DNA of 64,000 nucleotides, taken from the NCBI RefSeq assembly GCF_964031085.1, contig NZ_OZ035001.1:930001-994000 (forward strand). Reading direction: 5' to 3'. Source of the DNA: Spiroplasma endosymbiont of Asaphidion curtum (GTDB taxonomy: Bacteria > Bacillota_I > Bacilli_A > Mycoplasmatales > Nriv7). The notes beneath the pieces are model-generated. The model worked only from the letters and a program-made list of their open reading frames with translations. It did not search any database and was not told the origin of the DNA. This document shows, one piece after another, positions 1,718 through 59,309 of the stretch (positions are counted from its first letter, which is position 1; every line of letters begins with the position of its first letter). The translations under genes were made by a program, and so were the position numbers.

Positions 1718-2305
1718 TTATTCATAATGCTTTTTAAGTTGTAACTCCTTTAAATATAATGGTTCTAAATCATCAACATTAGTTACTTTTTTACATAAAT
1801 GTTTAATTTGTAAAAAATTTTCTACTAAATCAACGCGATGATAATCTTCAATTAACTTAAATTTTTTTCATTCTTTTTTCAATAAAAATAAATTATTTCT
1901 TGTAACTACTTGTTCTAAAACAATCGGATGGAAATTATCATAAACCGCAACAAAAAATTGATCAGTTTTAGCATTAATAACACTAATCGCCTGCTTATTA
2001 CCAACTTGCAATAATAAACTATTCGTAACAAAAACTTGCAACGCCTCATTAACTGCTTTCATTGTTTTCGCAATTGTAATCCCCACTCGAATTCCAGTAT
2101 AACTTCCCGGACCAACAGTTAAATACAAACTATCAATATCAAATCAACTTAATTTATTATTAGTTAACATTTCATCAATTAAAACTGTTGCCTTCTCAGT
2201 ATGTTTTTGATGATTCCAAATTTGTAAACTATCTAATAAACCACAATTATCTTGTAAAATAATTACTAAATATCCATTTGTCGTATCTAAAAATAATGTT
2301 TTCAT
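1718..2305 (-). CDS. tsaB: tRNA threonylcarbamoyladenosine biosynthesis protein TsaB
   Basis: 195 aa. TsaB is the inactive Kae1-like partner that helps TsaD and TsaE make t6A37 on ANN-decoding tRNAs. The N-terminus MKTLFLDTTNGY and the later segment LTVGPGSYTGIRVGI are the hallmark TsaB motifs. UGA encodes Trp at two points, so the gene appears broken under the standard code. The start ATG at 2305 overlaps the coaX stop by one base (TAATG), indicating translational coupling. tsaE lies in the same operon three genes upstream, which supports the assignment. The C-terminal tail is shorter than in E. coli TsaB, as is common in mollicutes. Confidence 0.92.
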
Positions 2306-2831
2306 TATTCTTCACCTTCATTTAATATTCATAAAATATTTAAACCAGTAAAAATTAAATCATCAATAAATTGATAATCTTGCAAAATATTTTTAACAAA
2401 AAAATAATTACCACCCAATATTATTACTAATGAATCTTTTAATTGTTTTTGATAAGTTTCAACAATACCTTTAATCGCCATTGCATGTCCATAAATAATA
2501 CCAACACTTAAACAATCTTTAGTATTCTTAGCAATCATTTCTTGCGGCAAAAATCAAGAATCTTTTTTTAACAAAGCTGCTTTTTCAATTAAAGCTTCAC
2601 CACTTGTTAGTAATCCTGGCAATATTGCACCACCAATAAACGAATTATCTTTAATACACGAAACCGTTGTTGCTGTCCCCATATCAATAATAATTATATC
2701 ACGATTTGGATAAACACTAACAGCGCCTACCGCTGCTGCTATTAAATCAGCACCCAAAGTAATAATATCATCTAAAACAAATTTAAAATTTGTTTTTAAC
2801 GCACTATCAATAAGTAAATAATTCCAACAAT

Positions 2832-3437
2832 AGACTTCTTGCATTACTTATTTATTAAACAAAATTCCTATAAAATATATTTAAAATAGAAATTATAAGG
2901 AATTTAAGATTATGAAATTTGATAAATTTAATTTTATTAATGATAAAGAATTATTACGATTAACTGGAATAAAGCAAAGTACTTTTAATAAAATGTTAAA
3001 TATTTTAAAAGAAGCTGAGTTAAAAAAGTTTAAAAGAGGTGGTAAAAATAATAAATTATCATTAGAAAATAGATTATTGATGACTTTATCATATTGACGA
3101 GAATATCGTACTTATTTTCATCTTGGTAAAAGTTTTGATATTAGTGAAGCTAGTTGTTATCGAAATATCAAGTGAATTGAAGATATTTTAATCAAACATC
3201 CTGATTTTCAACAACTTGCTGGTAAAAAAGCATTAATAAATGATTATTTTAATGATAAAACAATTATTATTGATGCTACAGAAACACCCATTCAACGCCC
3301 AAAAAAAGACAAAAACAATCTTATTCAGGAAAAAAGAAAAAAAACACTATTAAAACACAAGTAATTATTGAAAAAGAAAGCAAAATAATTATTGCAACAA
3401 ATTTTTCTCTCGGTAAAAAGCATGATTTTTGTTTATT
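2832..3437 (+). mobile_element. ISa copy, 3' truncated
   Basis: Begins with the ISa left end AGACTTCTTGCATTAC. It carries the orfA start (ATG at 2912, MKFDKFNFINDK) through the A7 slip site near 3301 and stops inside orfB at the point where another ISa end begins. The HTH and first catalytic Asp (IIIDATETP) are present; the rest of the DDE domain is missing. Confidence 0.9.
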
Positions 3438-7235: not shown

Positions 7236-7486
7236 ATGTATAAACCATTACAAATAGCAATAATGTTCTTATTTTCTTTTTCAACACCGTTATTACTTGC
7301 TAGTTGTAGTAGCAATAACATTAATAATAAAATTGATCAAGAAACTGATAATCCAAATAAAAATGATTTAATTAGTAAAATTAAAGATAACATTAATAAT
7401 AAATTTCAAGATTTTAATGACAAAAATAATAATGTTTTTATTGCTAAAAAATTACATATCAACGACACAAATATTCAAAAAATAAT
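7236..7486 (+). pseudogene. Lipoprotein gene, N-terminal part only
   Basis: About 83 residues remain. The start ATG at 7236 follows GAGGTG. A lipoprotein signal peptide ends in LLLASC, with Cys as the lipidation site near residue 23. An Asn/Asp/Lys-rich spacer follows. The frame runs into ISb at 7487 and stops within it, so the mature domain is lost. Typical of a Spiroplasma surface lipoprotein; no function can be assigned from the remaining part. Confidence 0.8.
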
Positions 7487-8528: not shown

Positions 8529-9612
8529 AGACTTCTTGCATTACTTATTTATTAAACAAAATTCCTATAAAATATATTTAAAATAGAAATTATAAGGAAT
8601 TTAAGATTATGAAATTTGATAAATTTAATTTTATTAATGATAAAGAATTATTACGATTAACTGGAATAAAGCAAAGTACTTTTAATAAAATGTTAAATAT
8701 TTTAAAAGAAGCTGAGTTAAAAAAGTTTAAAAGAGGTGGTAAAAATAATAAATTATCATTAGAAAATAGATTATTGATGACTTTATCATATTGACGAGAA
8801 TATCGTACTTATTTTCATCTTGGTAAAAGTTTTGATATTAGTGAAGTTAGTTGTTATCGAAATATCAAGTGAATTGAAGATATTTTAATCAAACATCCTG
8901 ATTTTCAACAACTTGCTGGTAAAAAAGCATTAATAAATGATTATTTTAATGATAAAACAATTATTATTGATGCTAGAGAAACACCCATTCAACGCCCAAA
9001 AAAAGACAAAAACAATCTTATTCAGGAAAAAAGAAAAAACACACTATTAAAACACAAGTAATTATTGAAAAAGAAAGCAAAATAATTATTGCAACAAATT
9101 TTTCTCTCGGTAAAAAGCATGATTTTTGTTTATTTAAAGAATCAAAAATCCCAATTTTAAAAAATACTAAATTAATAGTTGATAATGATTATCAAGGAAT
9201 ACAAAAAATTCATAGTAATGTTCTAATACCTAAGAAAAAAACAAAGAAAAACCCTTTAAATAAAGAACAAAAACATAATAATAAATTAATTTCAAAAATG
9301 AGAATTATTATTGAAAATATTTTTGCTATTCTTAAAAAATTTAAAATTATTACTGAAAAATATCGTAATCGTAGAAAACGATTTAGTTTAAGATTTAATT
9401 TAATTGCTTCAATTTATAATTTGCAATTATAGATAACATAAAATATTTATTTAAAATTAAATTTAAATAATAAAATAATTTTTTGTTGTGTCAAAATTTA
9501 CACATTTAATAAAATCCATAAGTATTAACCTAATAAAAGTTAGAAATTACTATATAGTATTTTTTATTTACAAATAATTTGTAATTATTTTAATAAGTAA
9601 TGCAAGAAGTCT
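8529..9612 (+). mobile_element. ISa, full length, with AAT target duplication
   Basis: 1084 bp, ends AGACTTCTTGC and GCAAGAAGTCT, flanked on both sides by AAT. This is the cleanest simple ISa insertion in the window; it truncates the exported-protein gene on its right. Confidence 0.95.
8609..9432 (+). CDS. ISa transposase (IS5-like), orfA/orfB joined by -1 frameshift, mutated copy
   Basis: orfA (8609-9061) has an N-terminal HTH-type region (LLRLTGIKQSTFNKMLNIL); orfB supplies the rest of the DDE domain. The frames join at the A7 run 8998-9004: slipping back one base continues P-K-K into RQKQSYSGKKKKHT. Catalytic Asp (IIIDA), second Asp and ENIFAILKK are visible. This copy differs from the consensus at active-site neighbours (DARETP for DATETP, DNDYQG for DNGYQG), so it may be inactive. 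Confidence 0.8.
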
Positions 9613-25974: not shown

Positions 25975-27056
25975 GCCAAATTGTAAAGTTAAGTGCAACT
26001 AAATTATTTTTCTAACCAAATATTCGATTGGTGAAAGATAATTTAGTATTTTTCTTGGTCTTTGGTTTAAAGACAATATAAATTTATGAACTGCATTTTT
26101 AGTAGTATTTGAAAAATTAAATTTTTTAGGAAATTTTTCTCTAATTAAACCATTAGTATTTTCATTAGTACCTCTTTGTCAAGGCGAATACGCATTAGCA
26201 AAATAAATTTTCACATTTAAATTTTTTTCAAGTTGTTGTCAATTAGAAAATTCTTTACCCCTATCAAATGTTATAGTCTTAACAAGATTATTTGGAAGAA
26301 TTGATAAATAATGGCTAATGTTTTCGTTAATAACTTTAGTAGTTCTATTTTCAACTAACATTGCTAAAGTAAATCTTGATGTTCTTTCAACTAAAGTTAT
26401 TAAACATGATTTACTTTTACCTCGTGATGATACTACAGTATCACCTTCTCAATGACCAACAGTTATACGATTATTAACATTAATATTTCGTTCTTTAATT
26501 GATTTACCATTAAATTTACCGCAATTTTCTTGAGATTTTCGTTTCTTACCTTTTCTTCTTAAATTTTTATTAGTAACTTTTTCAAGTAATCCAGAATAAA
26601 TTCAATTGTAAATTGTTTTAAAACTAATAATTCATTCTTTATGAAAATTTTTAATTCTGCCATAAATTTGTTCAGGCGATCAACCTAATAGTAATTTTTG
26701 TTGTACATATTTTACTAATTCTCTATTTTTAAACTTATGAAAATAAACATGTGATTGTTTTCTGTTTTCTGCTTTATTTTGTGCAATTAATGAAAAATAA
26801 TGATTACTATCTTTATTTCTATTGACTTCTCGAATAATAGTACTAATACTTCGATTAAGATTTTTAGCTATTTCACTAATTTTTACTTTAAACTTCAATT
26901 GATTCTCAATATAAATTCTTTCATATATGCCAAGATGTTTGTAACCCATATAAAAACTCCTTGCTTTGTTTTTTCTAAAATAAACTTAGCATCATGAAAT
27001 TTTTATATGAGATTTTTTGCAATTTTATTTACTTGCACTTACAAGTATAATTCAGC
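25975..27056 (-). mobile_element. IS30-type element (copy 3) with AAAT target duplication
   Basis: 1082 bp, GCCAAATTG to AATTCAGC, flanked by AAAT on both sides inside ISa. A clean nested insertion that fixes both element ends and the 4-bp duplication. Confidence 0.96.
25999..26949 (-). CDS. IS30 family transposase
   Basis: 316 aa, intact, near-identical to the 3626-4576 copy. One substitution near the middle is visible at the DNA level (CCGCAATTTT for CCGCGATTTT, Arg to Cys in ENRGKF). Confidence 0.94.
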
Positions 27057-27215
27057 AAATTAAATTTAAATAATAAAATAATTTTTTGTTGTGTCAAAAT
27101 TTACACATTTAATAAAATCCATAAGTATTAACCTAATAAAAGTTAGAAATTACTATATAGTATTTTTTATTTACAAATAATTTGTAATTATTTTAATAAG
27201 TAATGCAAGAAGTCT

Positions 27216-27359
27216 AATAAAATAATTTTTTGTTGTGTCAAAATTTACACATTTAATAAAATCCATAAGTATTAACCTAATAAAAGTTAGAAATTACTAT
27301 ATAGTATTTTTTATTTACAAATAATTTGTAATTATTTTAATAAGTAATGCAAGAAGTCT
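27216..27359 (+). mobile_element. Extra ISa right end in tandem
   Basis: 144 bp repeating the ISa 3' tail and inverted repeat immediately after a complete ISa. Best explained by an ISa that inserted into an older ISa at AAT, after which the duplicated 5' parts recombined. Confidence 0.8.
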
Positions 27360-28076
27360 ATTAATGTTTTACCAATTAATATCCCAATTGGGACTCAATA
27401 TTCCCATGCAACCGGAATTGCGTTTGCTGAAAAGTTTAAACAAGGTGATGGTATTGTTATTACTACTATTGGTGATGGGGGAACGAGTGAAGGCGAAGTT
27501 TATGAAGCAATGAACTTTGCTACGATTCATAAATTACCAGTAATTTTTATGGTGGAAAATAATCAGTGGTCCTTAACAACACCGAGAAAAAAAGCATCAG
27601 CAACGGCATCTTTAGCAATTAGAGGTGTGGGTGTTTTTGGGATTGCTAGTGCTCAAGTTGATGGTAATGATTTTTTTACAGTTTATGCAATGGTTGAAAA
27701 AGCAATTGTTCGTGCAAAAGCTGGTGAAGGTCCAACCTTTATTGAAACAATTACTTATCGGCGTTTTGCTCATTCAGCATCGGATATTAAAAAAGATTAT
27801 TATGATCCACAATTAGAAGCTGAATGATTAAAAAAAGATCCGCTTGATCGGTTAAGAAATTATTTAATTGCGAATAAAAAATGAGATGAAACCAAACAAA
27901 AACAATTAGATGTTGAAAATGAAGTATTAATTCGTAATGAAATTAATAGTGCAATGAATAAAAAAGATACAAAATTGGCAGATATTTTTCAATATACATA
28001 TGCAAAAATGACACCGCAATTAGAAGAACAATTAGCAGAAGCACAAGCATATTTTGCAAAGGAAGGTAATAACTAA
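27360..28076 (+). pseudogene. pdhA: Pyruvate dehydrogenase E1 alpha, N-terminus removed by ISa
   Basis: 238 C-terminal residues remain of about 370. The thiamine-diphosphate motif GDGGTSEGEVYEAMNFAT ... ENNQWS is present, followed by the phosphorylation-loop-like TYRRFAHSASD. UGA encodes Trp (EAEWLKKDP). There is no start codon; sequence begins at the ISa boundary with INVLPINIPIGTQ. First gene of the former pdhABCD operon; its stop overlaps the pdhB ATG (TAATG). Without the N-terminal third it cannot form a normal E1. Confidence 0.92.
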
Positions 28077-29081
28077 TGGCACTATATAGTAATATTCAAA
28101 CATTAACTAATGCACTAGACATTGCAATGGAACGCGATAAGACAATAGTTACTTATGGTGAAGATGTTGGTTTTTGCTGGTGGCATGTTTCGTGCAACTA
28201 GAGGTTTACAAAAGAAACATGGTGAAAATCGTTGTTTTGATGCGCCAATTGCTGAAGCTAGTTTAGTAGGAATTGCTGCTGGAATGGCTTTTAATGGACT
28301 TCGCCCGATTGGGGAATTACAGTTTCAAGGGTTTTGCTTATTCGGCGTTTCAACAATTATTTTGTCATATAGTTCGGTTTCGTAATCGCACAAGAGGAAG
28401 ATTTACTTGTCCAATGGTTATTCGGATGCCAGTTAATTTGTGAGGTTTAAAAGGTTTAGAACATCATTCTGAAGCTATTGAAGCAATGTTTGCGCATGTT
28501 CTCCTGGTTTTAAAGTTGTTATTCCGGCTAAACCTACTGATGTTAAAGGATTAATGTTAGCAGCAGCGGAATGTGATGATCCGGTAATGTTTTTAGAACC
28601 GTTAAGAAATTATTATACGCCCAAAGAAGAAGTTGCTGCTGGTCATTATACCATTGAAATTGATAAGGCAAAACAAATTACTAAATGAGAAGCTAGTGAT
28701 AATCCTGATTTAACAATTGTTACTTATGGGCCATTAGTTTATGATTGTGAAGCTGCTGTTGCTAAATTGCAACAAGAAGGAATGAAAATTGAATTAATTG
28801 ATTTAATGACAATTCATCCGTGAGATGAGGCAATAGTTGTTGTTTTCGTTAAAAAGACAAGAAGAATATTAGTAGTGCATGAAGCAGTTAAATCTTTTTC
28901 AGTATCTTCAGAAATTATTACGACAATTAATGAAAAATGTTTTGAATATTTACAATGTCCGCCAGCGAGATTAACAGGTTATGATGTGACTGTTCCTTTA
29001 TATCAAGGTGAACATTGATTTAAGATTACTGAAAAAAGAATTATTGATAAAGTAAAAACAATGATGACATATTTAGCTTAA
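28076..29081 (+). pseudogene. pdhB: Pyruvate dehydrogenase E1 beta, three frameshifts
   Basis: Begins MALYSNIQTLTNALDIAM and covers the full E1 beta length, but the frame changes three times: an extra T in the T5 run at 28171-28175 (DVGF-AGGMFRATRG), an extra G near 28330 (ELQFQGF-YSAFQQLF) and a 2-bp insertion near 28498-28503 (AMFAH-PGFKVVIPAKPTD). The net +1 agrees with the total length. The downstream part reads cleanly to TMMTYLA. The homopolymer changes could be sequencing errors, but the neighbours are damaged too. Confidence 0.88.
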
Positions 29082-29100
29082 GTGAGAAAGGAGTAGAGAT

Positions 29101-30419
29101 ATGATAGAATTTAAATTTTTAGGTCTTGATGGTGATATTAATGAAGGTCAAATAACACAAATTTATGTTAAGATTGGCGATGATATTAAAAAAGGTCAAG
29201 ATTTATTTGAGTTAGAAGCAGATAAACTTTCTCAAGCAATAGTTGCTGAATTTGATGGTAAAATTGGTCAAATTAATTTTGAAGTTGGCGATATTTATTA
29301 AGACCGGTGATGTCTTTGCTAGTAGTAATCTTAGTAATAATGTTACTTCATCTAAATCTAATAAGTCAGAAGAAAGTATTAATAAACAAGTTTCATCAAA
29401 TATGATGGAAACTAATCCTGAAAAATCAAATAATAAAGTATTAGCAACCCCATTAGCTCGAAGGATGGCTCGTGAATTAGGAATCGATATTACAACTATT
29501 AAGGGGACAGGACCTAATGGCAGAGTATTAAAACAAGATTTAGTCGGTGGACATCCTTTGTCTAGTGAAGTAAAATCATCGAAATTAGTAACAGAAAAAC
29601 CATTAGCGGTTGCCCCGCCAATGCAATCTTGTGTTGATGATATTTCTTTAAAAATGGTATCGCAAGCAGAACAGCGTGTAAAAATGACGCCAACCAGAAA
29701 AGCAATTTTTAAAGCAATGAGTAATTCAGTTTTTACAATTCCGCATACTAGTTTAATGACGCAAGTAAATGTTACTGCTTTAGTACAATTAAGAGCACAA
29801 TTAAAAATGACAGTTATTAAACCTGATTTTAAATTAACTTATATGCCATTTTTTATTAGGGCAGTTACGATGGCTTTAAAAGAATTTCCAATAATTAATG
29901 CACGATTAGATGAAGTAACAGAAGAAATTGTTTATCATAATTATTATAATATTGGCATTGCTGCTGATAAGATGTTAGCTCATGTGGCATCAGCGCAAAG
30001 AATTGTTGCTGTGGAAAATATTTTAGGTAAGAATAGTAAAATGGATATGGATTATATTGCTAGTTGTATTTATTCGTTTCCAAAAATTGCTAGTGTTGGT
30101 TTAACAGAGCAACAATGTCAAGATAAACAATTACCGTTTAGTAGTTTTAAGTTTCCTTTATTGGGTAATGGTAAAGCATTAGCTGATGGTGAAATAACGG
30201 GATTTGTTAAACTTTTAGCCAATAAACGAACTGGTGAGATTTATGGGGCTCATATTATTTCGGGAACAGCAACGGATATGATTATGGGAGTGACAACAAC
30301 AATGGTTAGTGAAGGAACAATTTATGAGTTGGCAAAAAACAATTCATCCTCATCCAACTTTATCAGAAGTTGTGATGGAAGCTGTGCATGGAATTATTGG
30401 TAAACCAATTCATGGTTAA
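29101..30419 (+). pseudogene. Chimera of pyruvate dehydrogenase E2 (N-terminal half) and dihydrolipoamide dehydrogenase (C-terminal end)
   Basis: The start is E2: a lipoyl domain with lipoyl Lys42 (ELEADKLSQ), a frameshift (extra T near 29294), a linker, the peripheral-subunit-binding domain (ATPLARRMARELGID, TGPNGRVLKQDL) and the first part of the catalytic domain up to YYNIGIAADK. From about 29970 the sequence is the E3 C-terminus: MLAHVASAQRIVAVENIL, SFPKIASVGLTEQQ, GEIYGAHIISG and, after an extra A near 30336, IHPHPTLSEVVMEAVHG. The E2 active-site HxxxDG and the E3 FAD, NAD and CxxxxC regions are missing. Deletion joined pdhC to pdhD in frame. SD GAAAGGAG precedes ATG 29101. Confidence 0.9.
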
Positions 30420-30449
30420 TTTAAAATTTTAATGAAAAGGAGAATTATC

Positions 30450-31184
30450 ATGGCAGGACATTCAAAATGAGCAAATATTAAGCATCGTAAAGCGGCCCAA
30501 GATAAAATTCGTGGTAAAATTTTTCAAAAAATTTTGCGACAATTAAATACTGCGGTAAGAAACGGTGGGATTAATATTGAAACTAACAATCAATTGCGAT
30601 TGCTAATTGAAAAAGCAAAAACAGTTAATATGCCCAAAGAAAATATTGACCGTGCTTTAAAGAAATTTAGTCAAGATAATAGTAATCTTAATTATGAAGA
30701 AATTATTTATGAAGGATTTGTTGCGGGACATATTGCTGTTATGGTTGAATGTTTAACTGATAATCGTAATCGTACAGCGACTAATGTTCGTAGTATTTTT
30801 AATAAAGCTAAAGGAACATTAGGGGTTACTGGCAGTGTTCGTTATCTTTTTACTCGTGTGGGACTATTAGTTTTTACTAATAAGACCGTTAGTGTGGATA
30901 AAGTTTTTGAATGAGCTTTAGAAATTGCGGCTATTGATGTTAATAACGATGAAGGAACATTTATTATTACGACAACTGTTGATAGGTTTTGAATAACCAA
31001 AACCTTTTTAGAATCTAAGGGTGTTACTGCCTTTGATGTTAGTGAAATTATTTTTCAACCGAACAAAACAGTATCCTTAAAAAATAAAATTGCCATTGAA
31101 CAATTTTGACAGTTAATTAATTCCTTAGAAGATGATGACGATGTGCAAAATATTTATTATAACTTTGTGGAAGATGATAATTAA
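30450..31184 (+). CDS. yebC: YebC/PmpR family DNA-binding regulator / translation factor
   Basis: 244 aa. The diagnostic N-terminus MAGHSKWANIKHRKAAQD is present with UGA as Trp, followed by the three YebC domains and an acidic C-terminus. The family includes transcription regulators and factors that help ribosomes through proline stretches. SD AAAAGGAG lies 6 nt before ATG 30450. It begins 30 bp after the broken pdh operon and may share its promoter. Confidence 0.95.
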
Positions 31185-31249
31185 TTAAAAAGGAAATTAT
31201 ATTGCTAAAAACTAATAAATTATTAGTAAAGTTAAAAAGGAGATTGTTG

Positions 31250-31336
31250 ATGAATCAAGAGTATATTTTAGCTATTGACCCAGCCGGAATTGGCGTTACA
31301 GGAGTAGTTATTTGTGATCTGCAAGATTTATCTATT
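31250..31336 (+). pseudogene. N-terminal stub of a RuvC-fold-like gene cut by ISb
   Basis: About 29 residues: MNQEYILAIDPAGIGVTGVV. The Asp followed by a Gly-rich turn and TG resembles the first strand of RuvC/RNase H-fold nucleases (DxxxxxTG). A strong SD (AAAAAGGAGA) precedes the ATG. ISb at 31337 removes the rest. Identification is tentative because so little remains. Confidence 0.5.
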
Positions 31337-31690
31337 AGACTTGGTACATAACCTTTAATTTTATCTACTATTTTGATAATATTATTTCCTAGGTGAAGTA
31401 CAAATATTAGATAAATATAAAGATGAAAGTGAATTTTATAGTCTAATAGGCATAAAATATAAAACTTTCATGAAAATGGTAGAAATTTTAAAAGAAGCTG
31501 AAGCTAAACAAAAACAAATTGGTGGTAGACCAAATAAATTATCAATAGAGCAAAGATTACTTATGACTTTAGAATACTGAAAAGAATATAGTACATATCG
31601 TATTATTGCAAAAAGATATTATTGGAAAATAAGGGTACTAATAATAATTTATTAGCAATTGATGCTACAGAAATTCCAATTGAAAGAATT
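31337..31690 (+). mobile_element. ISb fragment with internal deletion
   Basis: Left end AGACTTGGTACATAACC, then orfA whose start is mutated (ATA for ATG). About 130 bp between the HTH region and KILLENKGTNNN are missing, and it stops at an IS30 insertion after ATEIPIERI. Non-functional. Confidence 0.85.
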
Positions 31691-45588: not shown

Positions 45589-46524
45589 CTATAAAGGATT
45601 TTCTTTTTCTCTTTGCTTTTGTTCTGACATTTCTTCACTTTTAAAAGTATATTCTGATAAATTTGGTAAAGCATAACCCACTTCTTGTTTTGTTTTTATT
45701 TCAGTATTAGTATTCATCATAACCCCTGATGTTCCTGCCTCGTCTCAATCTCTTTGTGAAATTTCACTAACTTTAAATTTTTTAGGATTTTTATTATCTG
45801 CTACAAATTCTATTTTTTGTTTGTGATCTCTTTTATGATTAAATAAAACTTTTTGTTGTTGCTGAATATTTTTTTCTATTGAACATATATTAGAATCATT
45901 TTTATTAATATTCCTATTAATTTGTTCTCACATTAAATTTCTTATTTCAAAATTATTAAAATATTCTCCAAGTTCAAATGATGTTGCCCCATTTAACCCT
46001 CTAATATTAATATTAGCATTTGCTTCTAAGAGAATAGTAGTTGTTATGACATCACTATTATAAACTGCTCAGTGTAACGGCGTATCAAGATTATTATTTC
46101 TAATATCAACATCAGTCCGATTTCTTAATAAAAAAATTGCTGTTGTAATCGCACCAGTAATTATTGTAATATGCAATGGAGCTCCAATATTATTAATAAC
46201 ATTGGCATTAGCTCCTTCACTAATTAATAATTGCATTGCTGAAATATTATTTACAAATGTCGCTTCATGAATTGGCATACTACCCATCATATTAGCAGTA
46301 TTTACATTAACACCTTTTTGAATTAACACTTGCATAAATGTTAATCCTGCAAAATTGCGACTTGCAATATGTAAAGGCGTATCAAGATTATTAAATAAAA
46401 TATCTGGATTTGCACCTCTTTCAATAAATAATTGTGCTAATCCAAAGTCATTTTCATTTAATGCTAAATGTAGGGGGGTATCACCACTAGAAGTAGAACA
46501 ATTAACATCAGCACCAAACTCAAT
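45589..46524 (-). pseudogene. Ankyrin-repeat protein, N-terminus removed by ISa
   Basis: About 311 residues remain. At least five ankyrin repeats are visible by the TPLHxA core: GDTPLHLALNENDF, LDTPLHIASRNFAG, GSMPIHEATFVNN, GAPLHITIITGAI, LDTPLHWAVYNSD. They are followed by a charged, non-repeat C-terminal tail of about 110 residues rich in Lys, Asn and Glu. Ankyrin proteins in host-associated bacteria often bind host proteins, but no secretion signal can be checked because the start is lost at ISa. Confidence 0.88.
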
Positions 46525-52430: not shown

Positions 52431-52794
52431 ATTGTTAAATAAATCAATAATTATTTGTGATTTTAATGAATGTTGCCTTTTCTTACCAGAAAATAATAAT
52501 TTTAGTTTTTTTAATTCTTTCAATTGGAATTTCTGAAGCATCAATTGCTAATAAATTATTATTATTATTAGTACCCTTATTTTCCAATAATATCTTTTTA
52601 ATAATACGATATGTACTATATTCTTTTCAGTATTCTAAAGTCATAAGTAATTTTTGCTCTATTGATAATTTATTTGGTCTACCACCAATTTGTTTTTGTT
52701 TAGCTTCAGCTTCTTTTAAAATTTCTACCATTTTCATGAAAGTGAATTTTATAGTTTGGTAGGTGCAAAATGTTATAGTTATGTACCAAGTCTA

Positions 52795-52902
52795 ATGTAT
52801 TTTAAGGACAATCTTGAATTATTAAAATTTATTTATGAAAAAACTGGTATATGAAACACCACCGAATTTGAAAAAATAAAATTAAAGCATAAATTATCTT
52901 AG
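52795..52902 (+). pseudogene. Short unidentified ORF remnant
   Basis: 35 codons from ATG 52795 (MYFKDNLELLKFIYEKTGIW, then NTTEFEKIKLKHKLS) with one UGA Trp, starting directly at the ISb boundary. No SD, so probably the 3' end of a longer gene. Not recognised. Confidence 0.35.
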
Positions 52903-53000
52903 ACTGAAAAATATAAACACAAAAAGCGAGCAATAATTTATCATTGATATAAGTTATTTTTCATCTAACTATTCTGCATAAGGAGAAAGGAGAGAATAAA

Positions 53001-53093
53001 ATGAACAAGTGTAAGGACTGCAAATGTTCTTGTTCTGAGAGACATAACTGCAAAGATTGTAAGAAAGACAGTACTAGTAAACATAGTTGCTAA
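53001..53093 (+). CDS. Small cysteine-rich peptide, metallothionein-like
   Basis: 30 aa with 7 Cys: a CxxCxCxC cluster at residues 4-11, CxxC at 17-20 and a final Cys at 30; also 2 His and many Lys. A very strong SD (AAGGAGAAAGGAG) lies about 10 nt before the ATG, and a strong terminator follows 25 bp after the stop, so it looks like a real, separately expressed unit. The spacing fits Zn(II) or Cu(I) binding. No membership in a named family is claimed. No Trp/UGA. Confidence 0.65.
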   Translation: MNKCKDCKCSCSERHNCKDCKKDSTSKHSC

Positions 53094-53116
53094 CAAATTA
53101 AGACAATAAATAAATA

Positions 53117-53160
53117 AAAAATAGGTCTCTAACAAAGGAATTTTGTTAGAGACCTATTTT
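53117..53160. terminator. Strong bidirectional terminator
   Basis: 19-bp stem AAAATAGGTCTCTAACAAA / TTTGTTAGAGACCTATTTT with a short loop. Serves the Cys-rich peptide gene on one strand and rsh on the other. Confidence 0.9.
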
Positions 53161-53169
53161 GCTATATAT

Positions 53170-55395
53170 CTAGTTTTCCATTACAATGACATCATACACA
53201 TGGGGTATTTGTTGTAATGATGACAGTAATTGTTGAAGAAGAACTTTGTTAGCAATTTTAATAACAAGATTAATACTGTATTTATTATCCGAACTTGTTT
53301 CAATATGAATTTGTTGAATCGAAGCATTTAAATTAGCAAGAATATGTGTAATATTAGCCATTAAACCATCACGGTCATAACAAATTACTTTAATATTACT
53401 ATAATATTGATCGCGCTTAACGATATTTTCATTCCACCACACTTCCAGAAGTCGCCCTTGTCGTTCTTCTGGAAGAATATTGTGGCATTTAACTCGATGC
53501 ACGCGAATCCCACCAAGTTTACTAACATATCCCGTAATTGGTTCTAACGGCACTGGCATACAACAATGAGCTAAAGTTGCTTTAATATTATCAGCACCTT
53601 TAACAATAATGTCGTCTTTTAAGTTAATTTTTTCAACTTTTTTTTCTTGAAGATGATTTAAATAAGTATTAGGACTAGTTTCATTACTTGCTAATAAAAG
53701 ATTAATCGCATCATCAAGTTGATATTTCTTATTGGCAACATCTAAATAAAAATCTTCTAAAGTATGATATTTTAATTGCTTTAAGCGATGCATTAGTTCT
53801 TTTTGGGAAACTAACTTTCATTTTAATTTCCGCTGCGTTAAAGCATCATCAATCGCTTTTTTAATATTTTTAATTTTTTTAAGATTTTTAGATTCATTAT
53901 CCTTATGAGTTTCATCAAATTCTTGCTCTTGTTTTTTTAAAAATCTTTTAATTTTATGCAATGCATAACTAGTTTTAGCAATAACTAGTCAGTCACGGGA
54001 TGGTCGCATATTTTTACTAGTTTTAATTTCCACAACATCACCAGATTTTAAAACAGTACTAATAGAAACATAGTTACCATTAATTTTACCACCAGTAGTT
54101 TTCTCGCCAATATCAGTATGAACTTTATATGCAAAATCTAAAATTGTTGACCCAAAAGGCAAAGTAATAACTTTACCATTAGGAGTTAAAACATAAATTA
54201 AAGAAGTAAAAATATCACTCTTAACTGCTAACTCCATATTTGATTTTTCATTACTTTCTAATTCTTCATTATTAATATTTTCTAAATCTAAAATCCGATT
54301 AAAAATATCTAATCGCTCATCAATATCAGCTTGGCGTTTTTTAGTATTATAGATTTCGCCCTCTTTATACTTTCAATGCGACGCCGCCCCATAAGTTGCC
54401 TTTTCATCCATATCAACAGTTCGAATTTGAATCTCATAAATTATTGAATCTTGAATAACTGTTGTATGTAATGACTGATATAAATTATATTTAGGCGTTG
54501 CAATATAGTCCTTAAATCTTCCTGGTAAAGGCGGAAATTGTTGATGTAAATAACCTAAAATCGTATAACATTCATCAATCGTATTAGTAATAATTCTTAT
54601 CGCTAATAAATCATGAATATCTTCAAATTTACGCCCAAAATAATACATCTTACGATAAATTGAATAAATACTTTTGCTACGACCAGAAATTGTTGCTTTA
54701 ATATTCTTACTACTTAATAATGACTTAATATTGTTCATCATTACTGCCATTAATGATTCTAAATGTTCTTTTTCCAAATCAACATTGCGAGAAATTCTTT
54801 TATACTCAACAGGATTTAAAATTGCAAAAGACAAGTCTTCTAAAAGACTTTTTACTTGTCGCATCCCTAACCGGTGCGCAATTGAAGAATAAACTTCTAA
54901 AGTTTCTTTCGCAATAACTTTTTGTTTTTCTAGTTCCAAATATTCAATTGTTTGGATATTATGCAAACGATCTGCTAACTTAATAACAATAACACGAATA
55001 TCATGGGCCATACTTAAATATAACTTTCGCAAATAATTAGATTTAATTTCACTACGATTCATTTTAGCAAAATAAGATACTTTCGTGACCGCTTCAACTA
55101 AAGTTGATATCTCAATATCAAACTCTTTATTCAAGTCTTCAAAAGTTGTCGGTGTGTCTTCTAACACATCATGTAATAAACCAGAAATTAATGTCGCTAA
55201 ATCCATATGCCATGTTGCCAAATAATAAGTTGTTCATAAAGGATGATTAATATAAGGTTCACCACTTTTTCTTAACTGCTGATCATGTTTATTATAAGCA
55301 TAGGCATATGCTCGTTTTATTTCCTCAATATCTTTTTCGTTACTAATATAAGTTTTAACTTTATCTAAAACTTGTTTAAATGTTATCGATTTCAT
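53170..55395 (-). CDS. rsh: Bifunctional (p)ppGpp synthetase/hydrolase (RSH, RelA/SpoT)
   Basis: 741 aa, complete long RSH. HD hydrolase domain (YINHPL, HDVLEDT near residue 75, LADRLHNIQT), synthetase domain (GRSKSIYSIYRKM, FEDIHDLLAIRII, YNLYQSLHTTV), TGS domain (VLTPNGKVITLPFGSTILDFAYKVH), zinc-finger/CC region (ATLAHCCMPVP) and C-terminal ACT domain. Both catalytic halves look intact. Makes and removes the alarmone in response to starvation. apt lies just upstream on the same strand, a common mollicute order. Confidence 0.97.
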
Positions 55396-55414
55396 AATAT
55401 CAAACTCACTTATT

Positions 55415-55927
55415 TTAATATTGAATTAAACTTTCAATTTTTAAATTAGGAAATTGCTCACGGGCTTTAAAACTAGTCAATTCAATAACAAATACCGCGG
55501 CAATAACTTCGCCCTGTAATTCTTCAATTAAATTAATAATGGCATCAATCGTACCACCACTGGCTAGCAAATCATCAACAATAACAACTTTCATTCCGGG
55601 AACAATTGCATCCTTATGAATTGCTAAAGTACTTTTATTATATTCTAATTCATAACTTTTATGAATAACTGCTCGTGGTAATTTATCTGACTTGCGAATG
55701 GGAATAAATCCCAATCCCAATTCACTAGCAACCGGAGTTGCAAAAATAAATCCTCGGGCTTCGGGTGCCACAATAACATCGGGTTTAAATGATTTAACAA
55801 TTTCCTCTAATTGCTTAACGACTTGTTTAAATGCTGCACCATTAGCCAATAATGGTGTTATATCCTTAAATTGAATTCCTGCTTTTGGAAAATTAGGAAC
55901 ATCAATTATTAATTTTTTTAAATCCAT
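55415..55927 (-). CDS. apt: Adenine phosphoribosyltransferase
   Basis: 170 aa, normal length. N-terminal VPNFPKAGIQFKDITPLL, APEARGFIFATPVASEL and PRPP loop VVIVDDLLASGGT. Salvages adenine to AMP using PRPP. Sits 19 bp upstream of rsh and 25 bp after secDF, probably one transcript. Confidence 0.97.
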   Translation of the reverse strand: MDLKKLIIDVPNFPKAGIQFKDITPLLANGAAFKQVVKQLEEIVKSFKPDVIVAPEARGFIFATPVASELGLGFIPIRKSDKLPRAVIHKSYELEYNKSTLAIHKDAIVPGMKVVIVDDLLASGGTIDAIINLIEELQGEVIAAVFVIELTSFKAREQFPNLKIESLIQY

Positions 55928-55952
55928 TAATTAACTCATCTTTCCAACATTA

Positions 55953-58784
55953 TTAATCATTAACACCGACGACAATTTGTTCATCAGGTCCAGTTAATGA
56001 TTTATAAATTTTTTGCTTTTTATTTCGTAAAAGTTGCCCTTTAATGTTAGCAAAATATACTCATAATCATCGTAATAAAATTGTTGAAGAATAAATACCA
56101 ATAACACTACCTAATAAAAGAGCAAATGCTGCACCGATATTTTGACCAATAACAAATAATGTCATTGACAATAATAAGACTAACGATAAAACAATTAAAC
56201 TACTTTTTAAAGTCATTGTAAATCCAGTATTTACCAAATCCGATAAATTACTCTTATTCATTTTAGTACTATCCAAACCAATTTTATTTTCCCGAACACG
56301 GTCAAAGATAATTATTTTATGAATAATAGCAAAGATAACTACTGCTAAAATAGCTGTAACAACTTCAATCGTTACTTCAAAACGACAAATAATTATCAAA
56401 GAACAAGTTAATAAAACATCATGAATAATTGTCAATATTAATGGTAGAATAAAACTTCAATCAAAACGAATAATTAAATAAATTAGAACAATCGCCATAA
56501 TAACTGCTAACACAATAACCCCATCAATGACAACATCACCACTAGTTTCATTTCATAAAGAACCATAACTAACATCATTAATTCTAATCTCAGATTGGAA
56601 ATTATTTTCTGATAACCAAGTTTGTAAGGAGTTAACATGTTTATTATCAATTAAGGATGTTTTAATAACAATATTATATCCGCCATCTTCAATGCGGTTA
56701 AACACTGATAGGGAATAACTATCTGCTGAATAATCGGTTTTAAATTTACTAATAATTTCATTTTTAGTTTCTGCAATCACTTTTAGAAACGCCTCATCAT
56801 CAGCACCATCATCACTCGTAATACTATGTCCAGAAGTTTGCACTTGAAAAATTGTTCCCCGCGTAAATTCTAAACTAGTACCCGGGCCCGCCGTTGTAAC
56901 AACAATAACACCACACGAAATAATAATCGTAGAAAGTAAAATTAATCATTTAAAACTTTTTTGATAACTAAATTTCTTAGAAAAATGCGTTATCTTATTA
57001 AAACCAATCTTTTTAATAACATGATGAATTTTTTGTTTTATAACTACAAAATTAGTCATTACTAAATCTTGACGATTATTAATCCAGTTTAACGATAATA
57101 GCGAATAATAAATCCCTCGGATTAAAACAATACCAAAAATAAAAGCTCCTAAAATACTAATAATTAGCATAATCGCAAACGATTTAATAATACCGGTTCC
57201 AAATCAATAAATAAAGAAACTAATTGTCAATGTCAAAACCGTCATATCAAAAACTGTTGATATTGATTTTCGATTAGCATCTAAAAAAGATTGAATTAAA
57301 GATTTACCCCCATTAAACTCGGTTTTCATTCGTTCTAATAAAATAATACTACTACTTAAAGCAACCATTATACCTATTAGCATGGCAATAAACACTTCTC
57401 AGCCATAAATACCTAATAAAACATTAAACACAACCATTGTAACAATAACCATTGTTGCTAAAATAAGACCCAAAATAAGACCCAAAACACGATAAAATAC
57501 TGCCAAAATAACTAATATTATTAATAAAATAACACTAACAGTAATAATCATTATAACCTTTGTGGCATCACTAATTATGGTATCGGATACTGAATATGAC
57601 TCAACTTGATAGGCAATTCCTTTAATGCCGGCACTAAAAATCTTAGCTAAACCAGCGGCCGCCTCTTCACCACTAATCTCAATAAAAGCAATATCATTTA
57701 CTTTATCACTATTATTAGGTTTAAGTTGTAATGACGAAGATGTGATTAAATACTTATTTTTATATTTGTTATTCATAACATCTTTAAATTCAGTATTAAC
57801 AAGTTCTACTAAAAAAGGACGAAACGGATTTAAATATTGTTGTTTATCATAAGTATCATCTTCATTATTAATATCAATTGTTAAATCACTATTTGGCGAA
57901 TTCTTATTATAACTAAGAACCTCATTAAAAGTAACATCATCGTTTTGAAAATAGTTATAAATATCAGAATCAGTATTAACACCTTGATCAGCTAAATTTA
58001 CCTCTTTAACATCACCATTTTTACGATTACGAACACTAGCCGTTAAGAGACTTCGCAGAGCATTTCTTAAATCTTCAGCTTCAACACCTTGTAATGCTAC
58101 CGCTTTAGCATTAATAAATTTTCTAAATTTTATTAAATCGCTATAATTGCTGCGCATCTCATCTAACATTTGTCCAAAATCTTGTCAAACATAAACTGCC
58201 TTCTTATCTTGATATTTTAAAATTGCATTATATAACTCTAAATTTTTAATTTTGAATTCAATTGATGGTTTATTTATTCCCGAAATTAAAGAATTCTTTA
58301 TTGAACTACTATCAATAAAATCTTTTAAAACGATTCTTTTACCATTCTTCTTTGCTGGCTTGTAACTTTCACCAGTTCCTGTACCAACAAGTAAATCATC
58401 GCCTTTATCATCCAAAAAGAAAATTGATCCGCTGCGTTCAACATCGCGTAAAAAATCAGCAATATTACCATAATTGGCTTGTGGAACCATAACATTTAAA
58501 CGATTCCCACCAATATTACTAGTAAAACGACTAATATCCATCCTTTTTTTTCTTAAAGGATCAATTTTATCTTGCAAAGTATTAACAGCCTCATGACGAT
58601 TTTTCGCATTTTCATAACTAACAATTGTTTGATATGTCCCACCAGCTAACATTCCTGAACGAAAATTACTATTAACAAAAAAACTACCCGTAAGCAAACC
58701 AGCAATGGTACTTAAAATTAAAATAATAAATAAACCGAATTGAATCCAAAGGTTTCGTTGTGTTCCTTTAATATTATTTTCCAT
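55953..58784 (-). CDS. secDF: Protein translocase subunit SecDF (single polypeptide)
   Basis: 943 aa. SecD half: first helix (residues 13-35), a long extracellular domain and then five helices with the motif YQVESYSVSDT near residue 400. SecF half from about residue 580: SLEFTRGTIF matches the SecF D/E-x-x-GG-like entry, then YGSLWNETSGDVVIDGVIVL and HDVLLTCSLIIICRFEV, the usual SecF helix 4-5 motif. Uses ion flow to pull preproteins out. Several UGA Trp codons. The periplasmic part is longer than in B. subtilis SecDF. Confidence 0.94.
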
Positions 58785-58796
58785 ATCTATACCTCA

Positions 58797-59078
58797 TTAT
58801 TTCTTTTCAAACATTTCTTTAAAATCATCTAACGATATTGTTTTATCAGTAATTAATTTATTATTAATATGTTCAATAACAATATTTAGTTTAATATTAA
58901 ATATATCATATGTTGCTTGTTGCAAACTAGTAACTTGCCGTTTATGCAAAATCACTTCCAGATAATAATAATAAGTTGCCACATCAACGATTGACAACGA
59001 AGAAATTTCTAATTTCAATTCCATAGTTTTTAATTCTAATAATTTAAGAACATAACTATACAAATAAGACTTTTCCAT
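58797..59078 (-). CDS. Small conserved protein, ComN-like (post-transcriptional regulator family)
   Basis: 93 aa. Helical, with a tyrosine-rich segment (DVATYYYYLEVILHKRQVTS) followed by a conserved-looking helix (LQQATYDIFNIKLNIVIEHI). The size, helix pattern and location directly before secDF match ComN (YrzD), which lies next to secDF in Bacillus. The match is by context and general pattern. Start ATG 59078 is preferred over TTG 59102 because GGAAAAAG lies about 8 nt upstream. Confidence 0.55.
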   Translation of the reverse strand: MEKSYLYSYVLKLLELKTMELKLEISSLSIVDVATYYYYLEVILHKRQVTSLQQATYDIFNIKLNIVIEHINNKLITDKTISLDDFKEMFEKK

Positions 59079-59160
59079 TACTTTTTCCAACCTTATTGTC
59101 AAATCATTTATAATTATACAATATAATTTTTAAAAGTGAAAAAATAATTGTCGCTAACAA

Positions 59161-59309
59161 CTATCGGCATTGTTTCTCCTTAGCAAAAAAATATTGAATG
59201 TGTTTTCAAGCATCTTGTTCATCATTATTTAAACGAATAATACCTTCATAAGTAAATCTTTTTTTACAATTTGGTTTTTGTAAAATTGGTTTTTGTCATT
59301 TAAAATAAT
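59161..59309 (-). pseudogene. C-terminal remnant of an unidentified gene cut by ISb
   Basis: About 48 residues: FKWQKPILQKPNCKKRFTY, then EGIIRLNNDEQDAWKHIQYF and stop. In-frame UGA Trp twice. Upstream part lost at ISb. Same strand as the secDF operon, so it was probably its upstream neighbour. Not recognised. Confidence 0.5.

Follow-up and report, generated by a model that had tools for sequence, protein, structure and literature searches.

The window analysed here, a stretch of 64,000 bases from a Spiroplasma genome (bases 930001-994000 of the single contig, C1, of 1,313,897 bases or 1.31 Mb; the genome is called G000 below), very probably carries what is left of a once normal nox-lplA-pdhABCD operon that died recently and was lost together with the branch leading from pyruvate through acetyl-CoA to acetyl-phosphate. 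As far as can be read from the sequence, each of the four pdh genes is a pseudogene. The open reading frames of the window read well under genetic code 4. The strain is probably a heritable insect symbiont, its host association being judged from a relative, the symbiont of Nebria riversi, which is counted among the heritable strains, clade unplaced, in a passage of PMC10232968. The locus of this Nebria riversi endosymbiont (NZ_CP065193.1, the closest named genome found in one scan; locus L002) was used as the reference, and its operon is intact in the order nox-lplA-pdhA-pdhB-pdhC-pdhD-yebC, with pdhA, pdhB, pdhC and pdhD encoding proteins of 362, 333, 419 and 458 aa and Pfam matches obtained for lplA and pdhA-D. 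In blastn the window gave two matches to L002, 27359-29969 (94.1%) and 29960-31208 (93.0%), and intact orthologues of the pdh operon share 93-95% identity with it (L002, 93-94% DNA). The features of this part of the window are the following.

25999..26949, minus strand: transposase with HTH_38 and rve domains, left of the pdhA remnant, which we take to belong to the IS30 family (ORF, Pfam; further copies in the window)
27071..27364, no strand assigned: two tandem copies of an IS-end fragment, about 144 bp apart, abutting pdhA (self-blast of the window, 150 bp at 99.3%)
27359..28076, plus strand: pdhA (E1-alpha) pseudogene, codons about 125-362 (blastn to L002; Pfam E1_dh from profile position 96)
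28076..29081, plus strand: pdhB (E1-beta) pseudogene with frameshifts of +1, +1 and +2 (alignment to L002)
29101..29969, plus strand: pdhC (E2) pseudogene, with lipoyl and E3-binding domains and positions 2-103 of the 232 of the catalytic domain (blastn, Pfam)
29960..29969, plus strand: 10-bp microhomology at the E2-E3 junction, Ala-Ala-Asp in both parents (overlap of the alignment blocks)
29960..30419, plus strand: pdhD (E3) pseudogene, C-terminal residues, about 150, with the dimerisation domain (blastn, Pfam)
30432..31184, plus strand: intact gene of the yebC/TACO1 family (ORF, Pfam; the same downstream neighbour in intact relatives)

The lesions of the two E1 genes could be read directly from the alignment to L002. 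The alignment of pdhA begins at L002 4864, and codons 1-124 and most of codon 125 (of 362) are missing, with IS sequence immediately preceding the remnant; an in-frame insertion of 3 bp is also present. The first-pass annotation had claimed that E1-alpha lost its N-terminal third beside an IS, that E1-beta carries three separate frameshifts and that their net effect is +1, and all of this holds: pdhB has gained one base in each of two T runs, 28171-28175 and 28332-28335, and two bases at about 28499-28505. A 28-bp match ending at the pdhA start (G002:C1:500639, in another genome of the genus) was considered as a lesion common to both genomes and rejected, as it is merely the leader of a gene that is presumably tpiA-like.

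The end of the operon is more unusual. The window aligns to pdhC and pdhD in two blocks of L002 that overlap by exactly 10 bp, and this repeat occurs in L002 at 7451-7460 (pdhC) and 8788-8797 (pdhD), with the 1,337 bp between the two copies deleted in G000. This deletion removed the HRxxDG active site of E2 and the FAD/NAD domains of E3, in agreement with the claim that both were gone. The fusion is in frame, also as claimed, because the 10-bp repeat codes for Ala-Ala-Asp in the same frame in both genes, and the deletion length keeps the two in one frame. The E2 part was said to be joined near 29970 to the last 140 residues of E3; the fusion and its site stand, while about 150 residues of E3 remain, from residue ~307 of 458. 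The junction is flanked by further insertions: pdhC has gained one base in its T run 29294-29296, besides an in-frame insertion of 6 bp, and pdhD one base in its A run 30334-30339. The two single-base insertions add up to the net +2 proposed for the chimera. The open chimeric frame, 29243-30403, has 386 aa and matches E3_binding, 2-oxoacid_dh (2-103/232) and Pyr_redox_dim (1-94/110) in Pfam. Breakpoint pairs drawn at random in the operon shared at least 10 bp with a probability of 8.7e-5 (2,000,000 draws), and the operon holds 123 pairs of 10-mer repeats no more than 2.5 kb apart, i.e., substrates for such deletions are not rare. Judged by the alignment, a deletion between short repeats accounts for the E2-E3 chimera, and, judged by its domain content, which includes neither the acyltransferase active site nor the FAD/NAD domain, it presumably does not work as a PDH enzyme.

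The front half of the operon was found elsewhere in the genome. The nox gene is intact (470 aa, minus strand, G000:C1 1007748-1009160), and lplA adjoins it, about 50 kb from the pdh remnant, with its ends alone surviving:

L024:3606-3740 (G000:C1 ~1007605-1007739), no strand assigned: lplA stub of 35 codons, with intact nox on one side and an IS on the other

The stub results from an in-frame deletion of 879 bp (L002 3536 to 4415) between two copies of an 8-bp repeat; a 12-bp repeat considered at this place was rejected, as the overlap holds a mismatch and the exact shared repeat is 8 bp. After the stub come the pdhA start codon and then the IS. Full-length LplA, the lipoate ligase that the PDH lipoyl domain requires, had no match in G000 in a protein search run without a positive control of its own, and this requirement is left without an intact lplA. 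The IS30-like copy at 25999..26949 has a partner at G000:C1 1006630-1007580 on the plus strand, the two copies bordering the operon halves lie inverted to each other, and flipping the ~50 kb between them would restore nox-lplA in front of pdhA. From the gene order, an inversion between the two IS copies apparently split nox-lplA from pdhA-D, and the copy at 25999..26949 is its probable left end. A second rearrangement lies on the other side, where window 52793-59182 (compared with G003) or 52967-59174 (compared with G001) matches the post-yebC stretch in reverse. Synteny breaks after yebC at 31208, and relA-apt-secDF, the genes that come next to yebC in G001 and G003, lie 22-28 kb away, reversed, with IS copies between. 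A 33-codon frame (MNQEYILAIDPAGIGVTG...) follows yebC at window 31250-31351 (plus strand) and by eye seems cut by IS-like sequence, and an ankyrin-repeat ORF of 248 aa is found at window 45589-46335 (minus strand).

Homopolymer errors and a collapsed junction could together make an intact operon look broken, and it agrees with such an artefact that all five frameshifts are insertions and that three of them (T4 to T5, T3 to T4 and A5 to A6) extend short homopolymers. On the other hand, the 3,033 bp of pdh held all five, as against none over about 9,000 bp (9,015) in six control genes, nox, yebC, ackA, relA, apt and secDF (binomial p = 0.001), a set that had been chosen among genes already seen open with orthologues at hand and that left out the broken pta and E2-like gene of G000. 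Sequencing error is unlikely because the frameshifts cluster in pdh and because homopolymer errors would produce neither the IS truncation nor the 1.3-kb deletion. The truncation and the loss of 879 bp from lplA are large lesions in their own right, an assembly fault at the 10-bp repeat would leave the other lesions unexplained, and pta and the E2-like gene are broken in G000 too. We therefore consider an artefact very improbable. Set against an intact close orthologue, the operon carries disabling lesions, and its neighbouring genes carry none.

Real decay of the operon appears to be young. The dN/dS values between G000 and G001 were 0.07 for pdhA, 0.17 for pdhB, 0.26 for pdhC and 0.34 for pdhD, as compared to 0.14 for nox and 0.18 for yebC as controls, and no nonsense substitution was found in the codons compared between the two genomes. 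The loss looks recent from these codon comparisons, because dN/dS is low, far below 1, despite the many lesions. Over three genomes, the nonsynonymous to synonymous changes in pdh were 54:57 on the G000 branch against 16:34 on the G001 and G003 branches together (Fisher p = 0.06), with branch dN/dS of 0.26 for G000, 0.09 for G001 and 0.33 for G003, the last on 11 changes only; nox and yebC showed no shift in the same branch test (G000, G001, G003; p = 0.83). Relaxed selection was not accepted as independent proof of decay, since the p of 0.06 is merely suggestive and the ratio of G003 is higher still. The low values in the pdhA and pdhB remnants might instead speak for a residual role, in which the operon is dead as PDH and its lipoyl ORF or the chimera is translated as a lipoyl carrier or scaffold. 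A free lipoyl-domain ORF at 29101-29301 has, by eye, an upstream AAAGGAG and an EADK lysine motif, and the 386-aa chimeric frame is otherwise open. But the lipoate ligase is down to 35 codons, frameshifts stand on either side of the E2-E3 junction, the two genes that make up the chimera have the highest dN/dS (0.26, 0.34), and low values are expected anyway after a recent loss. Such a role would be hardly credible on this reading of the frames, and we return to the recently dead operon as the preferred explanation.

A functional PDH complex requires open E1-alpha, E1-beta, E2 and E3 genes, and all four are broken here; the E2 active-site motif and the E3 FAD/NAD domains, likewise required, are gone. 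The first-pass annotation had proposed searching the rest of the genome for a second pdh set, and the search of G000 found no other E1-alpha, PDH E2 or E3. E1_dh and full PdhA each match once, in the window. No second E1-beta was found in G000, where an ORF of 674 aa that reads as transketolase accounts for the other Transket_pyr match, and no second PDH E2, where the other E2-domain match is a separate decayed E2-like gene. No close second E3 was found in G000 either: a search with PdhD gave the two window pieces and three further matches, of 27-28% identity, two of which are nox and an ORF that is presumably an NADH-oxidase-like flavoprotein, and the third of which lies at G000:C1 1078227-1079102 (28%). 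The other two Pyr_redox_dim matches in G000 are again the NADH-oxidase-like ORF and nox. A second PDH set elsewhere in G000 was therefore rejected, the other matches that were looked into being transketolase-like, NADH-oxidase-like, nox and decayed E2-like.

The state of the operon was compared over five genomes of the genus, G000 to G004, this one included. PDH is intact in two (G001, G003), decaying in G000 and not found in two (G002, G004). A full-length E1_dh occurs in G001, where its length equals that in the Nebria riversi record, and in G003; the match in G000 is truncated, G002 and G004 gave none, and the E2 domain is distributed in the same way. At the DNA level, the stretch between nox and yebC, both included, is whole in G001 and G003, fragmented in G000, and matched by no more than 38 bases in G002 and G004. 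In this DNA comparison nox and yebC also had no long match in G002 and G004, and the whole nox-yebC segment seems gone there.

Only the two genomes with full-length E1-alpha, G001 and G003, have an open phosphotransacetylase gene, pta (322 aa). Its remnant in G000 is the following.

G000:C1 367200-368500 (L065), no strand assigned: broken pta

The pta lesions differ between genomes, i.e., the 5' part has been replaced by an IS in G000, the 5' end is lost and several indels are present in G002, and indels are scattered in G004. The acetate kinase gene ackA, directly downstream of pta, is open in four of the five genomes, and in G002 it is divided between frames. In mollicutes this enzyme can act as a nucleotide kinase, and this role could explain its retention. 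Unrooted trees of ackA and of ackA with the 3' part of pta separated G000 and G002 from G001, G003 and G004 with 100% support (200 bootstraps), and grouped G001 with G003 with 74-82% support. A root on the long middle branch needs at least two losses, and a root on the short G001-G003 branch could allow a single ancestral loss; three losses are suggested because the pta lesions differ. With n = 5 genomes the association of PDH with Pta has little statistical weight, and the losses were probably repeated within one young clade.

Two further genes with a bearing on this pathway were observed. The type III pantothenate kinase gene coaX (window 2305-2844, minus strand) ends at an IS copy near 2830 and, as had been noted, is broken, Pan_kinase positions 82-204 of 205 remaining. 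A second E2-like protein of 670-692 aa is open in G001 and G003 (L080:3710-5722, plus strand, and L081:4336-6414, minus strand), decayed in G000 (remnant C1 314307-314972, in L021:6290-7449) and unmatched in G002 and G004. Gln stands in place of its catalytic His (DHRxID to DQRAID), its lipoyl-like domain seems by eye to be without Lys, and no Pfam match to an E3-binding domain was obtained. Between G001 and G003 its dN/dS is 0.10 in the catalytic domain (11 changes), which seems to be under constraint, and 0.68 in the middle part, where constraint is far weaker. Judged by these features, the protein is a possible non-catalytic subunit of the PDH core. It is a speculative and rather doubtful extension that the clade dismantles the pyruvate-to-acetate branch again and again in one fixed order, with PDH and lipoate ligase going first, Pta next and AckA last, a host-bound lifestyle making the branch useless or costly, and that the E2 paralogue is a structural subunit dedicated to PDH like the eukaryotic protein X.

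For G000 itself, we infer an order of lesion events and a metabolic consequence as follows. An IS would have entered at the 5' end of pdhA, with about 370 bp of pdhA lost beside it, and recombination between the two inverted IS30-like copies most likely inverted the ~50 kb and carried off nox-lplA, as the gene order indicates. Short-repeat deletions account for the 1,337 bp lost between E2 and E3 (10-bp repeat) and the 879 bp lost inside lplA (8-bp repeat), and small insertions for the shifted frames of pdhB, pdhC and pdhD. The in-frame chimera would be a by-product of this 10-bp repeat, which specifies identical residues, three in number, in pdhC and pdhD. The loss of PDH would be part of abandoning the branch from pyruvate to acetyl-CoA and acetyl-phosphate, with pta broken and ackA open. 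This operon has been caught early in decay, and its intact close orthologues let each lesion and its likely mechanism be read. What G000 adds is the decay of lplA and pta alongside pdh and, probably, the repeated loss in one young clade; repeated loss makes it testable what replaces the branch as a source of ATP and of whatever acetyl-CoA is still needed.

PDH decay in G000 is not new in kind, as it has been published for another heritable Spiroplasma clade (PMC12453411). A passage of that source describes the Drosophila-associated strains sAld-Tx, sHy2 and sMoj of the Citri clade, in which pdhA is pseudogenised, pdhB and pdhD are absent and pdhC is complete. Like these strains, G000 is an insect-associated Spiroplasma with an incomplete pyruvate-oxidation operon, and two of the five genomes compared here keep theirs intact. 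Unlike them, it belongs to another clade, has all four genes broken and carries an in-frame E2-E3 chimera; lplA and pta are broken as well, and on both of these the passage is silent. The PDH genes are also reported missing in Spiroplasma EntAcro1 of attine ants (passage of PMC6245734), another insect Spiroplasma that lost PDH, whereas in G000 remnants and lesions are still visible. Among the papers listed, the titles and abstract openings, together with the passages cited here, held no report of PDH or Pta loss in the clade of G000, and the passages of PMC8208695 and PMC13375240, which treat mobile elements and pseudogenes, hold nothing on pyruvate. The gene neighbourhood itself is known, as S. 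mirum has the lipoate ligase SMM0324 and PDH subunits SMM0326-0328 (passage of PMC9666726), in agreement with the same arrangement, and pdhA, pdhB and pdhC are named in a passage of PMC3563533. The operon of the Nebria riversi endosymbiont (NZ_CP065193.1) is orthologous to that of G000, with 93-94% DNA identity and the same gene order, but its genes are all open, whereas those of G000 are split, truncated, frameshifted and fused. The genomes compared suggest that the acetyl-CoA/acetate branch is given up on more than one occasion among insect-associated Spiroplasma.
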